DNA of 33,104 bases from Candidatus Woesearchaeota archaeon (lineage in GTDB: Archaea; Nanobdellota; Nanobdellia; Woesearchaeales; 21-14-0-10-32-9): assembly GCA_021736975.1 (NCBI GenBank), contig JAIPET010000010.1, forward strand, positions 1-33,104, read 5' to 3'. A program made the translations under genes and the position numbers. Below the pieces are notes generated by a model. The model searched no databases. It saw only the letters and a list, made by a program, of their open reading frames with translations, and was not told where the DNA came from. Shown one piece after another: positions 14,597 through 32,369 of the stretch (position 1 is its first letter; each line of letters starts with the position of its first letter).

Positions 14597-15031
14597 ATGA
14601 ATAAAAAATATTTAGTATTAGGACTTGCACTAATAGCTCTTTTAACTGTTGGGCTTGTAAGTGCATATGGAGGTTTTGGTCAAATGATCGGAACACAGAA
14701 CGGAATGATGACTGGAGATCATCATGAAGAAGTTGAAACTATTCTTGAAACAGGAACTTATCAAGATCTTGTTGACTATAGAGAAGAAACTGGCTTTCCA
14801 GTTATGAATAGAGTTCAATCACAAGAAGACTTTGAAGTAATGCAAGCACATCACAAATTGATGGAAGAAAATGGATATGAACCAGGTCAATTTAGAGGCA
14901 CCGGAGAAGGACCGTTTGCAGGACAAGGAAAAGGTCCTAGAAACAATCAAGGAATGGGCTTTGATAATCATAAAGGTCAAGGTATGAGAGGCCAAGGCGC
15001 AGGATTCGGCGGATGCCCGATGCTTAACTAA
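14597..15031 (+). CDS. Exported Met/His/Gly-rich protein
   Basis: Signal peptide MNKKYLVLGLALIALLTVGLVSA; MIGTQNGMMTGDHHEEV; C-terminal G-Q-G rich tail ending GGCPMLN. Confidence 0.75.
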   Translation: MNKKYLVLGLALIALLTVGLVSAYGGFGQMIGTQNGMMTGDHHEEVETILETGTYQDLVDYREETGFPVMNRVQSQEDFEVMQAHHKLMEENGYEPGQFRGTGEGPFAGQGKGPRNNQGMGFDNHKGQGMRGQGAGFGGCPMLN

Positions 15032-15377: not shown

Positions 15378-15791
15378 ATGGAGATAAGTCCAAAGAAATT
15401 AATCATCGCATTAGCACTCGTGTTTTTACTTGGAGTTGCATTTTCAATAGTTAACGGAATATACTATTCTGAAGAAAGCAACACATTGCCGCTAATTGTT
15501 TACGGAATAAGCTTTGTCTCAATACTTCTTGGCGGAGCATTAGTCGTATTATTTCAATGGAAATTAAATGATGTACAGCTAAGAAAAGTTCTAAAAGTTC
15601 TTCCAGGAGAAGAAAGAAGAGTAGTCAGAATCCTTTTAGACAACAAAGGCAGCATAGAACAAAACAAACTCGTAGCCTTAAGCGGATACAACAAAGTCAA
15701 AATAAGCAGAATTCTCAAAGTTCTAGAGCAAAGAGAAGTCGTAAAGAAAACAAACCTAGGAAACACTAATTTGATAGTTCTTACAATATGA
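15378..15791 (+). CDS. Membrane-anchored winged-HTH regulator
   Basis: Two N-terminal TMs then EERRVVRILLDNKGSIEQNKLVALSGYNKVKISRILKVLEQREVVKKTNLGNTNLIVL. Confidence 0.8.
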   Translation: MEISPKKLIIALALVFLLGVAFSIVNGIYYSEESNTLPLIVYGISFVSILLGGALVVLFQWKLNDVQLRKVLKVLPGEERRVVRILLDNKGSIEQNKLVALSGYNKVKISRILKVLEQREVVKKTNLGNTNLIVLTI

Positions 15792-23861: not shown

Positions 23862-25112
23862 TTATCTTAATATGTTTGGGAAGAAAACCATTATTATTCC
23901 TAATATTAGCATTATTATGCCTCCTATTAGTTTGCACCATTTAGCGTATTTATCTCCTAAAAATTTGTTTACTGCAAATACTGCAAAACTAAATATGATT
24001 AAGTCATCTAACATAAAAAAGAACACATATAGTAGTATGTAAAGATAATATGATACTCCTGATATGTCACTTATTGCTAATACTTGTGTGAATATTGCTG
24101 GTAATGCTGCTGAGCAAACAAATTCTATGCTATTTATTATAAAAGCTAATCCTACCATTCCAACAAGTGTTGCCCATGTTAGTGGCGATGCAACTAATTG
24201 TTTCATTTTGCTCATAGTTTTTTTCTTGCTTTCTGCATTTCCTACTTCGCATTGAATAGCACCTTTTGTTTCTATGAATGATTTTATGCTTGTAACTCCA
24301 AAGTATAATGCTACTAAACCTATTATTATTGTTACTGCTCTTATATATCCTACTAGTAAAAATGCGTTTAGCCATGCAGTCATAAGAAGAAAATATAAAA
24401 CTCCGGAGGATAATAGAAATGTTCCTACTAAAAGCCATATTTTTTTTCTATCTCTAACTTCTAGTATTAAGGATATTAAATATACAAGTACCCACATAGC
24501 GCAGGGATTCATTCCATCTACAAATCCTAATAATATGGATAGAACTGGCAAACTTACTTCTAATACATTTATTTCTCCAAAAATTGGTAATTTTATTATT
24601 TTTTGAAATTCTTCTGTTTGATTTGTTTCATTATTTTCAGTTGTTTCATTAATTTGATTTTTTTCTTGTGCATTTTGTGCGATATATTCTTCTAGTGCTT
24701 GTCTTATTTCTACTCCTGTTGTTTCTTTACTTCCAAATCCTATTATTTCTTTATCTCCAATAAATGTTCCTGGAACGCCTAATGTTTTTATATCTAGGCC
24801 TCTTTCTACTGCCATTTGAAAATATATTTCATTTTCTTTAGAATTACTTGTATCGTGATATATCCAGTTTACTTGTGGATATTCTTTCATTAATTGTTGA
24901 TTAAATGGTTTTTGTTCTTGACAATGAGGACAGCTTGGTAAAAAAAAGAAGTGTACATCTAATTGTCCTGTTTCTGTGCCTGTGCTTGTATTTGTTGGTG
25001 CTGCAAAGATTAAAAATATTCCAAGGAGTATTATTATAGGAATAAATATTCTGTTAAATTTGTCTTCGAAAACTTTTTCAAAGATGTTTTTTGTTTTTTT
25101 AATCACAGACAT
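23862..25112 (-). CDS. Thioredoxin/glutaredoxin-like domain fused to DsbD/CcdA-like TM domain
   Basis: FFLPSCPHCQEQKPFNQQL (CxxC) and LGFVDGMNPCAMWVLVYLISLI with several TMs. Confidence 0.85.
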   Translation of the reverse strand: MSVIKKTKNIFEKVFEDKFNRIFIPIIILLGIFLIFAAPTNTSTGTETGQLDVHFFFLPSCPHCQEQKPFNQQLMKEYPQVNWIYHDTSNSKENEIYFQMAVERGLDIKTLGVPGTFIGDKEIIGFGSKETTGVEIRQALEEYIAQNAQEKNQINETTENNETNQTEEFQKIIKLPIFGEINVLEVSLPVLSILLGFVDGMNPCAMWVLVYLISLILEVRDRKKIWLLVGTFLLSSGVLYFLLMTAWLNAFLLVGYIRAVTIIIGLVALYFGVTSIKSFIETKGAIQCEVGNAESKKKTMSKMKQLVASPLTWATLVGMVGLAFIINSIEFVCSAALPAIFTQVLAISDISGVSYYLYILLYVFFFMLDDLIIFSFAVFAVNKFLGDKYAKWCKLIGGIIMLILGIIMVFFPNILR

Positions 25113-28349: not shown

Positions 28350-28388
28350 AATTTTTTATTTTTCTTTTTATTTATTCTTAAACGATCT

Positions 28389-28425
28389 AGAACGATAATT
28401 TGACACTTTCAAACGTTCTGAGTGT
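28389..28425. promoter_or_regulatory. Dyads upstream of the copper locus
   Basis: AGAACG (28389-28394)/CGTTCT (28414-28419) and interleaved ACACT (28403-28407)/AGTGT (28421-28425), just upstream of a TATA-like TATTAATAAA at ~28444. Confidence 0.45.
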
Positions 28426-28485: not shown

Positions 28486-28689
28486 ATGGAAAAAACATTC
28501 AAGATTAAAGGAATGCATTGTAAATCGTGTGAAATGTTAATTAAAGATGAGTTAGATGAACTTGATTCTGTAATTGTTAAAGACATTTCGCATAAGTCTG
28601 GGGAAGTAAAATTGGTTTTTGATTCTAATATTATTAATGAATCTAAAATAAAATCTGTTATTAAAAATGAAGGTTATGAGGTGCAATGA
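28486..28689 (+). CDS. HMA-domain metallochaperone (CopZ-like)
   Basis: KGMHCKSCEMLIKDEL. Confidence 0.88.
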   Translation: MEKTFKIKGMHCKSCEMLIKDELDELDSVIVKDISHKSGEVKLVFDSNIINESKIKSVIKNEGYEVQ

Positions 28690-29612
28690 TGAAAGAAAAT
28701 ATTTACATTCCTGATATTGAGTGTGATTCTTGTTCTAGAGTTTTAAAAAAGGCGTTTGATAAAGAAGATGGAATAATAAAATATGTTGTTTATGATGATT
28801 CAACTGAAATCGAATTTGATGAGTCAAAAATAAATACTAAAGATATTATTAGTATTATTAAATCAAAAGGTTTCAGAGCTTCAACTGAACCATTTGAGAG
28901 AAAAACATTAAAGGAAAGAATGAGACACTTTAAGGAAAATCCTTCTAAGTATGTTTTGGAATCAAAAATTATTCCTTATACTATTGGTCTTTTTCTTATT
29001 ATTAGTGCATTAGAAGTTTTAGCGTATTTTTTATTTTTGAAAAATATTCCTGATTTTTTATCAAATTATAGTTGGTGGATTTTATACTTAAATATAAGTA
29101 TTGCAACTATAAGTGTTGGTATGTGGCATGTAATCGCATATTTGAAGAATAAAATTACTTGTATGACTGGTATGATGATTGGCATGACTATTGGTATGCA
29201 AACAGGTATGATGATTGGTGCAATTGTTGGTGCGACAAATGGATTTTTTATAGGAAGTATGGTTGGAATGCTTTTAGGTTGTTTAGTTGGATGGATTACT
29301 GGAAAATGTTGTGGCATCATGGGAACTATGGAAGGATTAATGGCAGGCCTCATGGGAGGAACTATGGGTCCTATGATTTCAATTATGATGTTTTCAGATA
29401 ATTTATTGATATTTATGCCTTTTTATATAGCTATTAATGTTTTAATACTTGGCGGCTTAAGTATTATGATGTATGAAGAAGTTGTAGAAGGAAAAAAGCA
29501 TAATAAACAACCAGTAGATTTTATGACTTTAAGTTCAATCGCAGTCATTGCAACATTTATTTTACTAGCAATAATAATTTATGGACCAAAAAGTCCATTA
29601 GTAAGTTTTTAA
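28686..29612 (+). CDS. HMA-like domain plus polytopic Met-rich glycine-zipper membrane protein
   Basis: IECDSCSRVLKKAF; then GMMI GMTI GMQT GMMI GAIV GATN GFFI GSMV GMLL GCLV GWIT GKCC. Overlaps the preceding gene by 4 nt. Confidence 0.85.
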   Translation: MMKENIYIPDIECDSCSRVLKKAFDKEDGIIKYVVYDDSTEIEFDESKINTKDIISIIKSKGFRASTEPFERKTLKERMRHFKENPSKYVLESKIIPYTIGLFLIISALEVLAYFLFLKNIPDFLSNYSWWILYLNISIATISVGMWHVIAYLKNKITCMTGMMIGMTIGMQTGMMIGAIVGATNGFFIGSMVGMLLGCLVGWITGKCCGIMGTMEGLMAGLMGGTMGPMISIMMFSDNLLIFMPFYIAINVLILGGLSIMMYEEVVEGKKHNKQPVDFMTLSSIAVIATFILLAIIIYGPKSPLVSF

Positions 29613-29624
29613 GGAGGTATTAAT

Positions 29625-30131
29625 ATGAAAGTAAAAAAAAGTGTATTTTATTTTGTGCTTGCAATTGTAGTAATTGGATTATTTGGAATTTTAAGTTCCG
29701 CAATGAGTGCTAATGCAAAACAAAGTATAACGGGAAATGTAGTTGGTTCTAATAATGATCAAAAAGCAGTAAGTGGAGAATATCAAAATGTTAAACTTAG
29801 TTATGAAAATTATGTTTATGTATTAGATCCTCCTGAATTAAAAATGGGGGTTCCTGTTAGAATGGAAGTTGATATGAATAGCGTTGTAGGTTGTATGCAA
29901 GCAGTAAGAATACCAGGTTTTGGAGTGAGTTCTTATGTGCGCGAAGGCGATAATATTATTGAATTTACTCCTGATAAATCAGGAACATTTAATATTGCTT
30001 GTAGCATGGGTATGGGCGCTACAACTTTTGATGTAGTTGATAATTCAGGAGAAAAAACTGCATATGTTGAATCAGCACCAGTTGCTGGAAGTTGTGGTGC
30101 AAGTGAAGGTGGATGCGGTTGTGGAGGATAA
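29625..30131 (+). CDS. Cupredoxin-like exported protein with Cys-rich tail
   Basis: N-terminal TM; VVGCMQAVRIPGFG...NIIEFTPDKSGTFNIACSMGMG; tail SCGASEGGCGCGG. Confidence 0.8.
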   Translation: MKVKKSVFYFVLAIVVIGLFGILSSAMSANAKQSITGNVVGSNNDQKAVSGEYQNVKLSYENYVYVLDPPELKMGVPVRMEVDMNSVVGCMQAVRIPGFGVSSYVREGDNIIEFTPDKSGTFNIACSMGMGATTFDVVDNSGEKTAYVESAPVAGSCGASEGGCGCGG

Positions 30132-30191: not shown

Positions 30192-32369
30192 ATGAAAAAA
30201 GTAGATTTAGATATCAAAGGAATGCATTGTGCTAGTTGTTCAACGTTAATTCAGAAAGTTTTTAGTAAAAATGCAAATATTAAATCTTCAAACGTTAATT
30301 ATAGTACTGGAAGAGCAACTGTTAATTTTAATGAAAAGTTAGTATCAGAAAAAGAATTAATTGAAATTGTTAAAAAAAAAGGTTATGATGCTTCTATTTC
30401 TAAATCGATGATTGATCCTAAAAAACAACATAAAAAAGAAATGATTAGATTAAAGAAAAAATTAGTTTATAGTTTGTTTTTTGCTGTTCCTGCTTTTATT
30501 ATTGGCATGGTTTTTATGTGGGTTGGAATAAAACTTCCTTTTGAAGAATATATTTTATGGATTTTAGCCACGCCAATTCAATTTTATATTGGTGCCGAAT
30601 TTTATAAAGGAACTTGGAGTGCTTTAAAAAATAAGACTGCTAATATGGATTCTTTAATTGCTCTTGGTACTAGTGCAGCGTATTTTTATTCTGTTTATTT
30701 GGTTTTGTTTGTTCAAGGTCATCAACAATATTTTGAAACTTCAGCAATATTGATTACTTTAGTTATTCTTGGGAAATATTTAGAAGCTAGTGCTAAGGGG
30801 AAAACTAGTGATGCTATTTCTAAACTGATGAGTATTAGTCCTAAAACTGCGCGTGTATTAAGAAAAGGAATTGAATATAATATTAGTGTTGATGATGTTA
30901 AGCTAGGAGATATTATTCTTGTTAAACCTGGAGAAAAAGTTCCTGTTGATGGATCTATTCTTTCTGGAAATACAAGTATTGATGAATCTATGATTACTGG
31001 TGAAAGTATTCCTGTTGATAAAAATAAGAATGATTTGGTTTTTGGTGGAACTATAAATAAGCATGGTTCTTTTAGATTTAAAGCTACAAAAGTTGGAAAT
31101 GATACAACTCTTTCTCATATAGTAAAATTAGTTGAGGATGCTCAAGGTAGGAAAGCACCTATTCAAAGATTTGCGGATACAATAAGTGCTTATTTTGTAC
31201 CTATAGTTATTTTAATTGCTATAATTACTTTTATTGGTTGGACTTTAGGAGGAAAAGATTCTTCTTTTGCTATTCTTACAGCTGTTTCTGTTTTAGTTAT
31301 TGCGTGTCCTTGTGCTCTTGGTCTTGCTACTCCAACTAGCATTATGGTTGGAACTGGTCTTGGTGCTAAAAAAGGTATTTTAATTAAAGGAGGAGATGCT
31401 CTTGAAACTGCTCATAAAATTAATTTTGTTGTTTTTGATAAAACAGGAACTATCACTAAAGGAGTTCCTGAAGTTACTGATTTTAAAACGAGTTTAAATG
31501 AAAAAGAGTTCATTACTATTTTGGGAAGTATTGAAAATGAATCTGAACATCCTTTAGCAGAATCTATTGTTAGATATTCTAAAGAACAAAAAGTTAAGTT
31601 TAAAAAAATTTCAAAATTTAAAGCGATTCCTGGTCATGGAATAGAAGCAAATATTAGTAAAAATAAATATTTTGCTGGAAATATTAAACTTATGCAAAAA
31701 CAAAAAATAAATGTGTCTAAATATAAAAATAAAATTGAGTCTCTTGAAAAGGAAGGTAAAACTGTAATGATTTTGGCTGATAAAAAAGTTCTTGGAATAA
31801 TAGCTGTAGCAGATACAATAAGAGAAACAAGCAAGCAAGCAGTTTATAGATTGCATAAAATGGGAATAAAGACTTTTATGATAACTGGTGATAATAAAAG
31901 AACTGCTAAAGCTATTGCTGGCCAGGCTGGCATCAAGAATGTTTTTGCTGAAGTTTTACCTAAAGATAAGGCTGGTTATGTTAAAAAACTTCAAAGAAAG
32001 GGTAAGTTTAAAGTTGCTATGATTGGTGATGGCATTAATGATGCTCCTGCGATTGCTCAAGCTGATATTGGTATTGCTATGGGTTCTGGTACAGATGTTG
32101 CTATGGAAACAGGAGATATTGTTTTAATGAGAGATGATCCTTTAGGAGTGCCTAGTGCTTTAAGACTTAGTAAATTAACTATGTCAAAAATAAGACAAAA
32201 CATGTTTTGGGCTTTATTTTATAATGTTCTTGGAATTCCTATAGCGGCAGGCACATTATATTTGTGGACTGGTTGGCTTTTATCTCCAATAGTTGCAGGC
32301 GCCGCTATGGCTATGAGTAGCGTTTCAGTTTTAACTAATAGTTTGCTTTTAAAATATAAAAAATTATAG
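30192..32369 (+). CDS. copA: Copper-translocating P1B-type ATPase
   Basis: GMHCASC HMA; CPCALGLATP; DKTGTITKG; MIGDGINDAPA; SEHPLAE. ATG 30192 preferred over the track TTG at 30174. Confidence 0.95.
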   Translation: MKKVDLDIKGMHCASCSTLIQKVFSKNANIKSSNVNYSTGRATVNFNEKLVSEKELIEIVKKKGYDASISKSMIDPKKQHKKEMIRLKKKLVYSLFFAVPAFIIGMVFMWVGIKLPFEEYILWILATPIQFYIGAEFYKGTWSALKNKTANMDSLIALGTSAAYFYSVYLVLFVQGHQQYFETSAILITLVILGKYLEASAKGKTSDAISKLMSISPKTARVLRKGIEYNISVDDVKLGDIILVKPGEKVPVDGSILSGNTSIDESMITGESIPVDKNKNDLVFGGTINKHGSFRFKATKVGNDTTLSHIVKLVEDAQGRKAPIQRFADTISAYFVPIVILIAIITFIGWTLGGKDSSFAILTAVSVLVIACPCALGLATPTSIMVGTGLGAKKGILIKGGDALETAHKINFVVFDKTGTITKGVPEVTDFKTSLNEKEFITILGSIENESEHPLAESIVRYSKEQKVKFKKISKFKAIPGHGIEANISKNKYFAGNIKLMQKQKINVSKYKNKIESLEKEGKTVMILADKKVLGIIAVADTIRETSKQAVYRLHKMGIKTFMITGDNKRTAKAIAGQAGIKNVFAEVLPKDKAGYVKKLQRKGKFKVAMIGDGINDAPAIAQADIGIAMGSGTDVAMETGDIVLMRDDPLGVPSALRLSKLTMSKIRQNMFWALFYNVLGIPIAAGTLYLWTGWLLSPIVAGAAMAMSSVSVLTNSLLLKYKKL

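Follow-up and report, generated by a model that had tools for sequence, protein, structure and literature searches.

A Methionine-Lined Glycine-Zipper Membrane Protein of DPANN Copper Operons as a Candidate Cu(I) Conduit

The window analyzed in this study is the whole stretch of 33,104 nucleotides from a Candidatus Woesearchaeota archaeon, and it contains a copper operon in which a membrane protein with a long glycine ladder and two conserved methionine faces (hereafter the zipper protein) is encoded. We tentatively propose, with somewhat less than even confidence, that the zipper protein is a Cu(I) conduit or handover protein, which would pass Cu(I) from a cytosolic HMA domain to an extracytoplasmic cupredoxin, in the outward direction, when copper is in excess in DPANN archaea. 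To our knowledge, little is understood of how Cu(I) crosses the prokaryotic cytoplasmic membrane without ATP, and only a few families have been established for this task.

Results and Discussion

Glycine Ladder and N-Terminal Domain

The coordinates of the zipper protein, its motifs and the neighboring genes are summarized in Table 1.

Table 1. Features of the copper operon and of the zipper protein in the window.
Feature	Position	Strand	Remarks
Putative operator-like sequence upstream of the operon, AAACGATCTAGAACG...AAACGTTCTGAG	28371..28420	.	
CopZ-like HMA protein, 67 aa	28486..28689	+	Pfam HMA 7.5e-11; CopZ_Bs 1.6e-13
HMA + glycine-zipper membrane protein	28686..29612	+	308 aa
CDSC motif of N-terminal HMA-like domain, aa 13-16	28722..28733	+	HMA fold match
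C159 and conserved M160, M163, M164, M167, M171, helix 3	29160..29198	+	One helix face
i+4 ladder of 13 glycines, aa 162-210	29169..29315	+	
C208-C209 pair, between the two zipper halves	29307..29312	+	Cys in 67/81 and 71/81 homologues
Second Met face, M212, M219, M223, M227, M230, M234	29319..29387	+	99-100% conserved
Cupredoxin, secreted or membrane-anchored, Cys-rich tail	29625..30131	+	Pfam Cupredoxin_1 1e-4
CopA-type P1B ATPase, N-terminal CASC HMA domain	30192..32369	+	TIGR01511 E 1.8e-198

The initial annotation described twelve consecutive G-x-x-x tetrads at 29169-29312 on the forward strand. These were confirmed in the frame of the 308-residue ORF, where they read GMMI GMTI GMQT GMMI GAIV GATN GFFI GSMV GMLL GCLV GWIT GKCC, and the Gly/Met-rich continuation, GIMGTMEGLMAGLMGGTMGPM, matches the earlier description as well. 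The glycine run itself comprises 13 residues rather than 12, as G210 keeps the i+4 register. In 100,000 composition-preserving shuffles, the longest i+4 glycine run was 9 for the zipper region and 7 for the membrane core, and the run is exactly 13 in 56 of the 80 homologous ORFs tallied. A chance or low-complexity origin of the ladder is ruled out by the shuffles together with the conservation. In helices 3 and 4a, the glycines lie symmetrically about G186 (182/190, 178/194 ... 162/210), an arrangement that would suit an antiparallel zipper hairpin.

The N-terminal CDSC domain had been described as HMA-like, which is borne out by a Pfam HMA match (E = 1e-4) and by the match of the AlphaFold model to HMA domains, with TM-scores of approximately 0.7-0.9 on the target; the score for Pfam HMA (PF00403) is 23.1 bits, slightly below the cut-off of 24.8. 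HMA domains were also matched when the whole protein was compared with the PDB using Foldseek. The DKTGT motif and the ATPase domains of P1B ATPases are absent from the 308-residue protein, and CopA is encoded by a separate gene. Residues 3-164 align to CopA N-termini at 25-33% identity, mostly via the shared HMA domain. The zipper has no counterpart in the CopA N-termini, and an origin from the first CopA helices was set aside.

Predicted Structure and Topology

The AlphaFold2 model of the whole protein has a pLDDT of 95.7 and a pTM of 0.89, and that of the core alone has values of 95.2 and 0.91. The predicted helices span residues 95-116, 124-151, 159-185, 187-234, 240-267 and 279-299. Lysine and arginine cluster ahead of helix 1, in the loop linking helices 2 and 3, and in the loop of residues 263-279, and the turn of residues 185-187 has none; this pattern fits an N-in topology. 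Judging from the sequence, the protein is probably N-in/C-out with seven spans, given a break near G206-G210, and the fusion of cores to cupredoxin in L132-L134 places the C terminus on the cupredoxin side. In the model, helix 187-234 is unbroken over 48 residues and exceeds the membrane thickness; a single helix too long for one crossing counts against the proposed topology and against a shared Met path. Distant relatives carry PTGN and PSGTLGGH in the two corresponding linkers, which argues that the loops are real.

Conservation of Methionine, Glycine and Cysteine

Of the alignment columns, 14 show no variation among the 81 homologues, and every one of them is Gly, Met or Asn (G170, N185, G186, G190, G202, M212, G217, G221, M223, G225, M227, G228, M230 and M234); M160, M163, M164, M167, M171 and M219 are conserved at 91-100%. 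The suggestion that the methionines act as soft-metal ligands presupposed their conservation, and they are indeed kept among the homologues, where they belong to the most conserved positions. Within residues 157-236, conservation of at least 90% was found for 11 of 17 Met and 17 of 19 Gly, compared with 1 of 21 Leu/Ile/Val/Phe. The difference between Met and Leu/Ile/Val/Phe (Fisher p = 1e-4) is indicative, as the sequences are related and the test was chosen after the pattern had been seen. The Met residues are located on one face of each of the two helices, with resultants of 0.83 and 0.89, and the corresponding values against random subsets (p = 0.001 and 0.0001) are indicative for the same two reasons.

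C159 is Cys in 66 of the 81 homologues. The three cysteines C159, C208 and C209 are common yet dispensable; many homologues have lost at least one of them, so that no function common to the family can depend on a Cys relay. The loss of C208 and C209 from several homologues also counts against the conduit proposed below. This bears on a reading as a DsbD-like thiol or electron shuttle, with DsbD_2 as its counterpart, that would keep the extracytoplasmic cupredoxin and its Cys-rich tail reduced. The frequency of the three cysteines would agree with such a shuttle, as would the unrelated module found in the same slot (see below), which is DsbD_2 of the thiol-disulfide carrier superfamily. However, it is Met and Gly, rather than Cys, that are kept without change, and we regard the shuttle as very improbable.

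Family Searches and Nearest Known Systems

The initial annotation did not recognize the family. In keeping with this, no characterized family, metal or non-metal, matches the core in Pfam, NCBIfam, the PDB or by fold. Pfam and NCBIfam searches of the protein and its homologues gave HMA matches and sub-threshold glycine-zipper matches only. The glycine-zipper families PF13441 (YMGG) and PF13488 (Omp) have GxxxG repeats in common with the zipper protein, but both scores are below the curated cut-offs (16.9 bits against 28.9, and 15.1 against 25, respectively). The Foldseek comparison of the core with the PDB gave nothing at E <= 0.001, the TM-scores listed did not exceed 0.25 on the query, and the PDB sequence matches of the core were rejected as G/M repeat matches or chance. 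A description of the zipper family was not found in the open-access literature.

Cu(I) is filtered in Ctr1 by two rings of Met (MX3M); helix packing depends on a GX3G zipper, and transport is lost on Met-to-Leu substitution (PMC6437178). The zipper protein is like Ctr1/COPT in having i+4 Met residues in a membrane helix together with a glycine zipper (PMC6437178), where MX3M occurs as M163-M167-M171, M160-M164, M219-M223-M227 and M230-M234, all conserved at 91% or more. However, Ctr1/COPT has three membrane helices per subunit, whereas at least six are predicted in the zipper protein, whose Met and Gly ladders share the same helices and extend much further; furthermore, the zipper protein carries a cytosolic HMA domain and is encoded in a prokaryotic operon. 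No Ctr match was found in Pfam, in NCBIfam, in the comparison of the core profile with PDB sequences, or in Foldseek (best TM-score on the query, 0.25). The zipper core combines both Ctr1 motifs (MxxxM and GxxxG), in a longer and stricter form, on an unrelated scaffold.

The zipper protein also resembles MerT/MerTP, in which a polytopic membrane protein is likewise associated with an HMA domain and has a Cys pair. The MerTP profile matches the HMA part of the window protein only (residues 4-64); there was no MerT match for the window protein, and the MerT Pfam family matched weakly in 1 of the 81 homologues. Unlike MerT/MerTP, the zipper protein has a path of Met rather than Cys, and no mer genes were seen.

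Copper Operon and Surrounding Genes of the Window

The zipper protein had been assigned to a copper locus, and the genes of the CopZ-like HMA protein, the cupredoxin and the CopA-type ATPase do adjoin it. The stop codon of the CopZ-like gene overlaps the start of the zipper gene (ATGA), and the cupredoxin gene begins 12 bp after the zipper gene, followed by the CopA-type ATPase gene. The predicted ligands of the window cupredoxin are C90 and C126-x-M128-x-M130, which are conserved in its relatives. The operator-like region upstream consists of a repeated AAACGWTCT-type sequence, which is partly palindromic, and the sister genome L002 keeps an operator-like sequence in the same position (AAACGTTCTAGAAC...AAACTTTCTGAG).

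Elsewhere in the window, a Met/His-rich predicted secreted protein (14597-15031, + strand) is followed by a two-helix membrane winged-helix protein (DUF7343; 15378-15791, + strand). Pairs of this kind recur in the copper loci of relatives, and hence the window may hold a second copper-linked spot. Upstream of the copper operon, a predicted thioredoxin-like and multi-span membrane protein is encoded on the opposite strand (23862-25112, - strand); its counterpart in L002 adjoins the copper operon.

Copper Context across Loci

The zipper protein was the sole query used to collect the loci, and the 78 loci with an intact core were counted. A sulfur-ligand cupredoxin is present in 67 of the 78 loci, usually as the next gene, and CopA in 64; both are found in 57, and one or both in 74. 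The cupredoxin relatives (n = 75) share a Cys in a GC pair (97%), a second Cys (100%) and the two Met of CxMxM (97% each), and no His is conserved among them, which indicates a soft Cu(I)-type site and not a typical blue-copper site.

Another soft metal, such as silver or mercury, or some other substrate may be considered, with the copper genes as incidental neighbors, as Ag(I) and Hg(II) are further ligands of HMA domains and Met sites. However, the CopA family match, CopZ and the sulfur-ligand cupredoxin occur in most loci across phyla, and Csp is a neighbor in a methanotroph; this alternative is given a very low probability.

Further frequent neighbors are ArsR regulators and Met/His-rich predicted secreted proteins. 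Several loci hold ArsR, BlaI or TRASH-type regulators, which are typical of resistance, and the Parcubacteria locus contains a BlaI-type repressor, a BlaR1-type peptidase, a DsbD-type protein and cupredoxins. In 46 of the 78 loci (e.g., L022:2380-2904, + strand), the neighbors include a winged-helix protein anchored in the membrane by two predicted helices. A conserved C...C(LH) segment lies between these helices, and the protein is a candidate extracytoplasmic copper sensor in one polypeptide.

Two other neighbors were observed. An uncatalogued membrane protein of about 160 residues with an invariant CxxC (L073:6594-7076, + strand) is present in 28 loci, often two genes past the core, and has no Pfam match. 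At L026:6638-7159 (+ strand), also two genes past the core, a cupredoxin carries a CuA-like CxxxCxxxH motif and resembles a DPANN nosZ-like CuA protein (PMC10936187).

A haem-copper oxidase (COX1) above the cut-off was found in none of the 145 relatives. A role in haem-copper oxidase assembly was rejected on this basis, and a copper supply role becomes less likely.

Fusions and the Exchangeable Membrane Slot

The core and a cupredoxin domain form one polypeptide in three distant relatives (L132, L133 and L134), which supports a handover role. The earlier suggestion of a Cu(I) channel, store or handover platform is therefore supported in part: the copper setting holds over many loci, and for handover there are the core-cupredoxin fusions.

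Among the 76 Cu-ATPase matches listed, the zipper protein lies within 3.5 kb of 19, and an HMA-DsbD_2-cupredoxin fusion takes its place at 16. The two never occur together (hypergeometric 0.005), an exclusivity that is partly forced because the slot rarely holds two. In related archaea, this fusion (COG2836-like, PF13386) is located directly before CopA, in the slot that is otherwise taken by the zipper protein, and it shares the order of HMA domain, polytopic membrane domain and sulfur-ligand cupredoxin as well as the type of Cys-rich tail; the cupredoxin is inside the fusion, whereas it is usually encoded by a separate gene beside the zipper protein. Kinship of the zipper core to DsbD_2 (PF13386) was rejected (hhalign probability of 0.3%, no Pfam match), and the zipper appears to stand in for a membrane module to which it is unrelated. 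HMA+DsbD_2 proteins (COG2836) belong to a predicted copper-responsive CsoR regulon in gut Firmicutes (PMC4938975).

A MerT-like membrane protein with a Cys-rich tail was observed near CopA at L136:902-1825 (+ strand; HMA-fused) and at L137:5065-5856 (- strand). The L137 gene adjoins a cupredoxin gene and occupies the slot by profile match; its kinship to the zipper protein was rejected for lack of BLAST similarity. With the DsbD_2 fusions, the MerT-like protein of L137 and the zipper protein all found there, different membrane proteins fill the slot between HMA and cupredoxin.

That multi-spanning proteins of the DsbD_2 and MerT-like kinds take the place of the zipper protein suggests that its task is trans-membrane. 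This weighs against the view that the zipper protein is a membrane copper buffer or docking platform, on which Cu(I) would be held by Met and Cys and swapped among CopZ, CopA and cupredoxin with no crossing, and the strict helix-long glycine ladder with Met along whole helices likewise suits a transmembrane path better. Such a buffer would account for a number of Met that exceeds the need of a minimal filter and for the other copper binders usually found alongside, and the repeated gain or loss of the HMA domain described below is as expected for a docking accessory. Taken together, a buffer appears unlikely.

Extent and Distribution of the Family

The profile scan of 84,980 species genomes gave 141 loci of the zipper family, of which the best 80 (L021-L100) were kept for study. 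Nearly every host belongs to the Woesearchaeota, Pacearchaeota, Nanoarchaeota, Micrarchaeota, Aenigmatarchaeota or Diapherotrites. Outside the archaea, the gene occurs in Parcubacteria (L054, with which L051 groups in the tree) and in methanotrophs, namely Methylococcus sp. UBA6136 and Methylotetracoccus oryzae. The distribution is patchy, the zipper gene being present in 25 of 145 related genomes (21 of 120 genera). In the methanotroph's order, an essentially full-length match was found in 8 of 201 genomes, in addition to one gapped copy and one weak match. In the sampled part of the Parcubacteria phylum, the genome of L054 alone gave a strong match, and two other matches were weak; bacteria beyond the groups reached (e.g., Firmicutes) were covered by two peptide patterns only. 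None of three plasmid queries (window protein, distant core and methanotroph form) was matched, and plasmid spread of the family was rejected on this basis.

Full-length relatives are found in the same taxonomic order as the window's archaeon. A CxxC N-terminal domain is present in about 49 of the 81 homologues and the core stands alone in about 29, while Pfam HMA (PF00403) matches 47. On the tree, the presence of the HMA domain switches at least 12 times, by gain or loss.

Methanotroph Copies and the Direction of Flow

The six sequences from methanotrophs group as a single branch with full support, inside a likewise fully supported set of 42 rows, the rest of which are Woesearchaeota/Nanoarchaeota and a few MAGs labelled 'archaeon' or 'bacterium'. 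In this tree, which was obtained by a quick method with the root placed on a long branch, transfer of the zipper gene from archaea to methanotrophs appears to be the simplest reading. In one methanotroph genome, the zipper gene lies between a Csp-like gene, whose best PDB match is CSP3 (E = 6e-16), and the gene of a Met-rich predicted outer-membrane protein, and there is no CopA nearby. Such surroundings point to storage or uptake, and less to efflux. The core protein and its Met-rich predicted outer-membrane neighbor share an MxCGAxM peptide in three genomes (L109, L110 and L111). In one methanotroph copy, L113 (G068:C1:1419956-1420453), the core was matched in two abutting pieces, with profile positions of about 107-140 (a part of the zipper) missing.

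The methanotroph context favors the same conduit working inward, where the cupredoxin or the methanotroph outer-membrane protein would capture Cu(I), HMA/CopZ or Csp3 would receive it, and CopA would load extracytoplasmic proteins. Methanotrophs need much copper, and MerT, which by profile match also occurs in the slot (L137), is an importer. Ctr1, the nearest mechanistic parallel, imports as well (PMC6437178). On the other hand, most archaeal loci pair the zipper protein with an exporter, several with ArsR, BlaI or TRASH-type regulators, and the relatives are without haem-copper oxidases. Inward conduction, as a complete account, is somewhat unlikely; as a direction of flow, inward is nearly as likely as outward. 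For DPANN archaea, outward flow is favored because of the exporter in the operon and the resistance-type regulators in part of the loci, and because the HMA+DsbD_2 counterparts belong to a predicted CsoR regulon and the relatives have no haem-copper oxidase. It is by analogy with such systems that we infer the outward direction.

Proposed Mechanism

From the sequence features, we infer that Cu(I) is bound by the zipper protein and passes through it. In the outward conduit proposed here, the N-terminal HMA domain, or a separate CopZ-like protein, would deliver Cu(I) in the cytosol. The packed glycine-zipper helices would carry the two invariant Met faces as a Cu(I)-selective thioether path, with the Cys/His-Cys-Cys cluster (C159, C208 and C209) at one end and D238/M234 at the other. 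Outside, Cu(I) would be exchanged with the all-sulfur cupredoxin encoded by the next gene. In DPANN archaea, Cu(I) in excess may thus move from the HMA/CopZ pool to a cupredoxin sink, in parallel with ATP-driven CopA.

A wider picture, rather unlikely when taken as a whole, is that of an undescribed Cu(I)-conduit fold made of an antiparallel glycine ladder and two Met-lined helices, which would serve HMA-to-cupredoxin transfer in DPANN archaea and would have been passed to Methylococcales for uptake to Csp storage.

Conclusions

The zipper family is compact, and its invariant Met, its natural fusion to an extracytoplasmic copper protein and its HMA-less copies make the function testable, aided by the copy in the cultured methanotroph Methylotetracoccus oryzae. 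The results point to a likely copper function for a recurrent 'hypothetical' gene of DPANN archaea, and they suggest that archaea may have given methane oxidizers a copper-handling gene.
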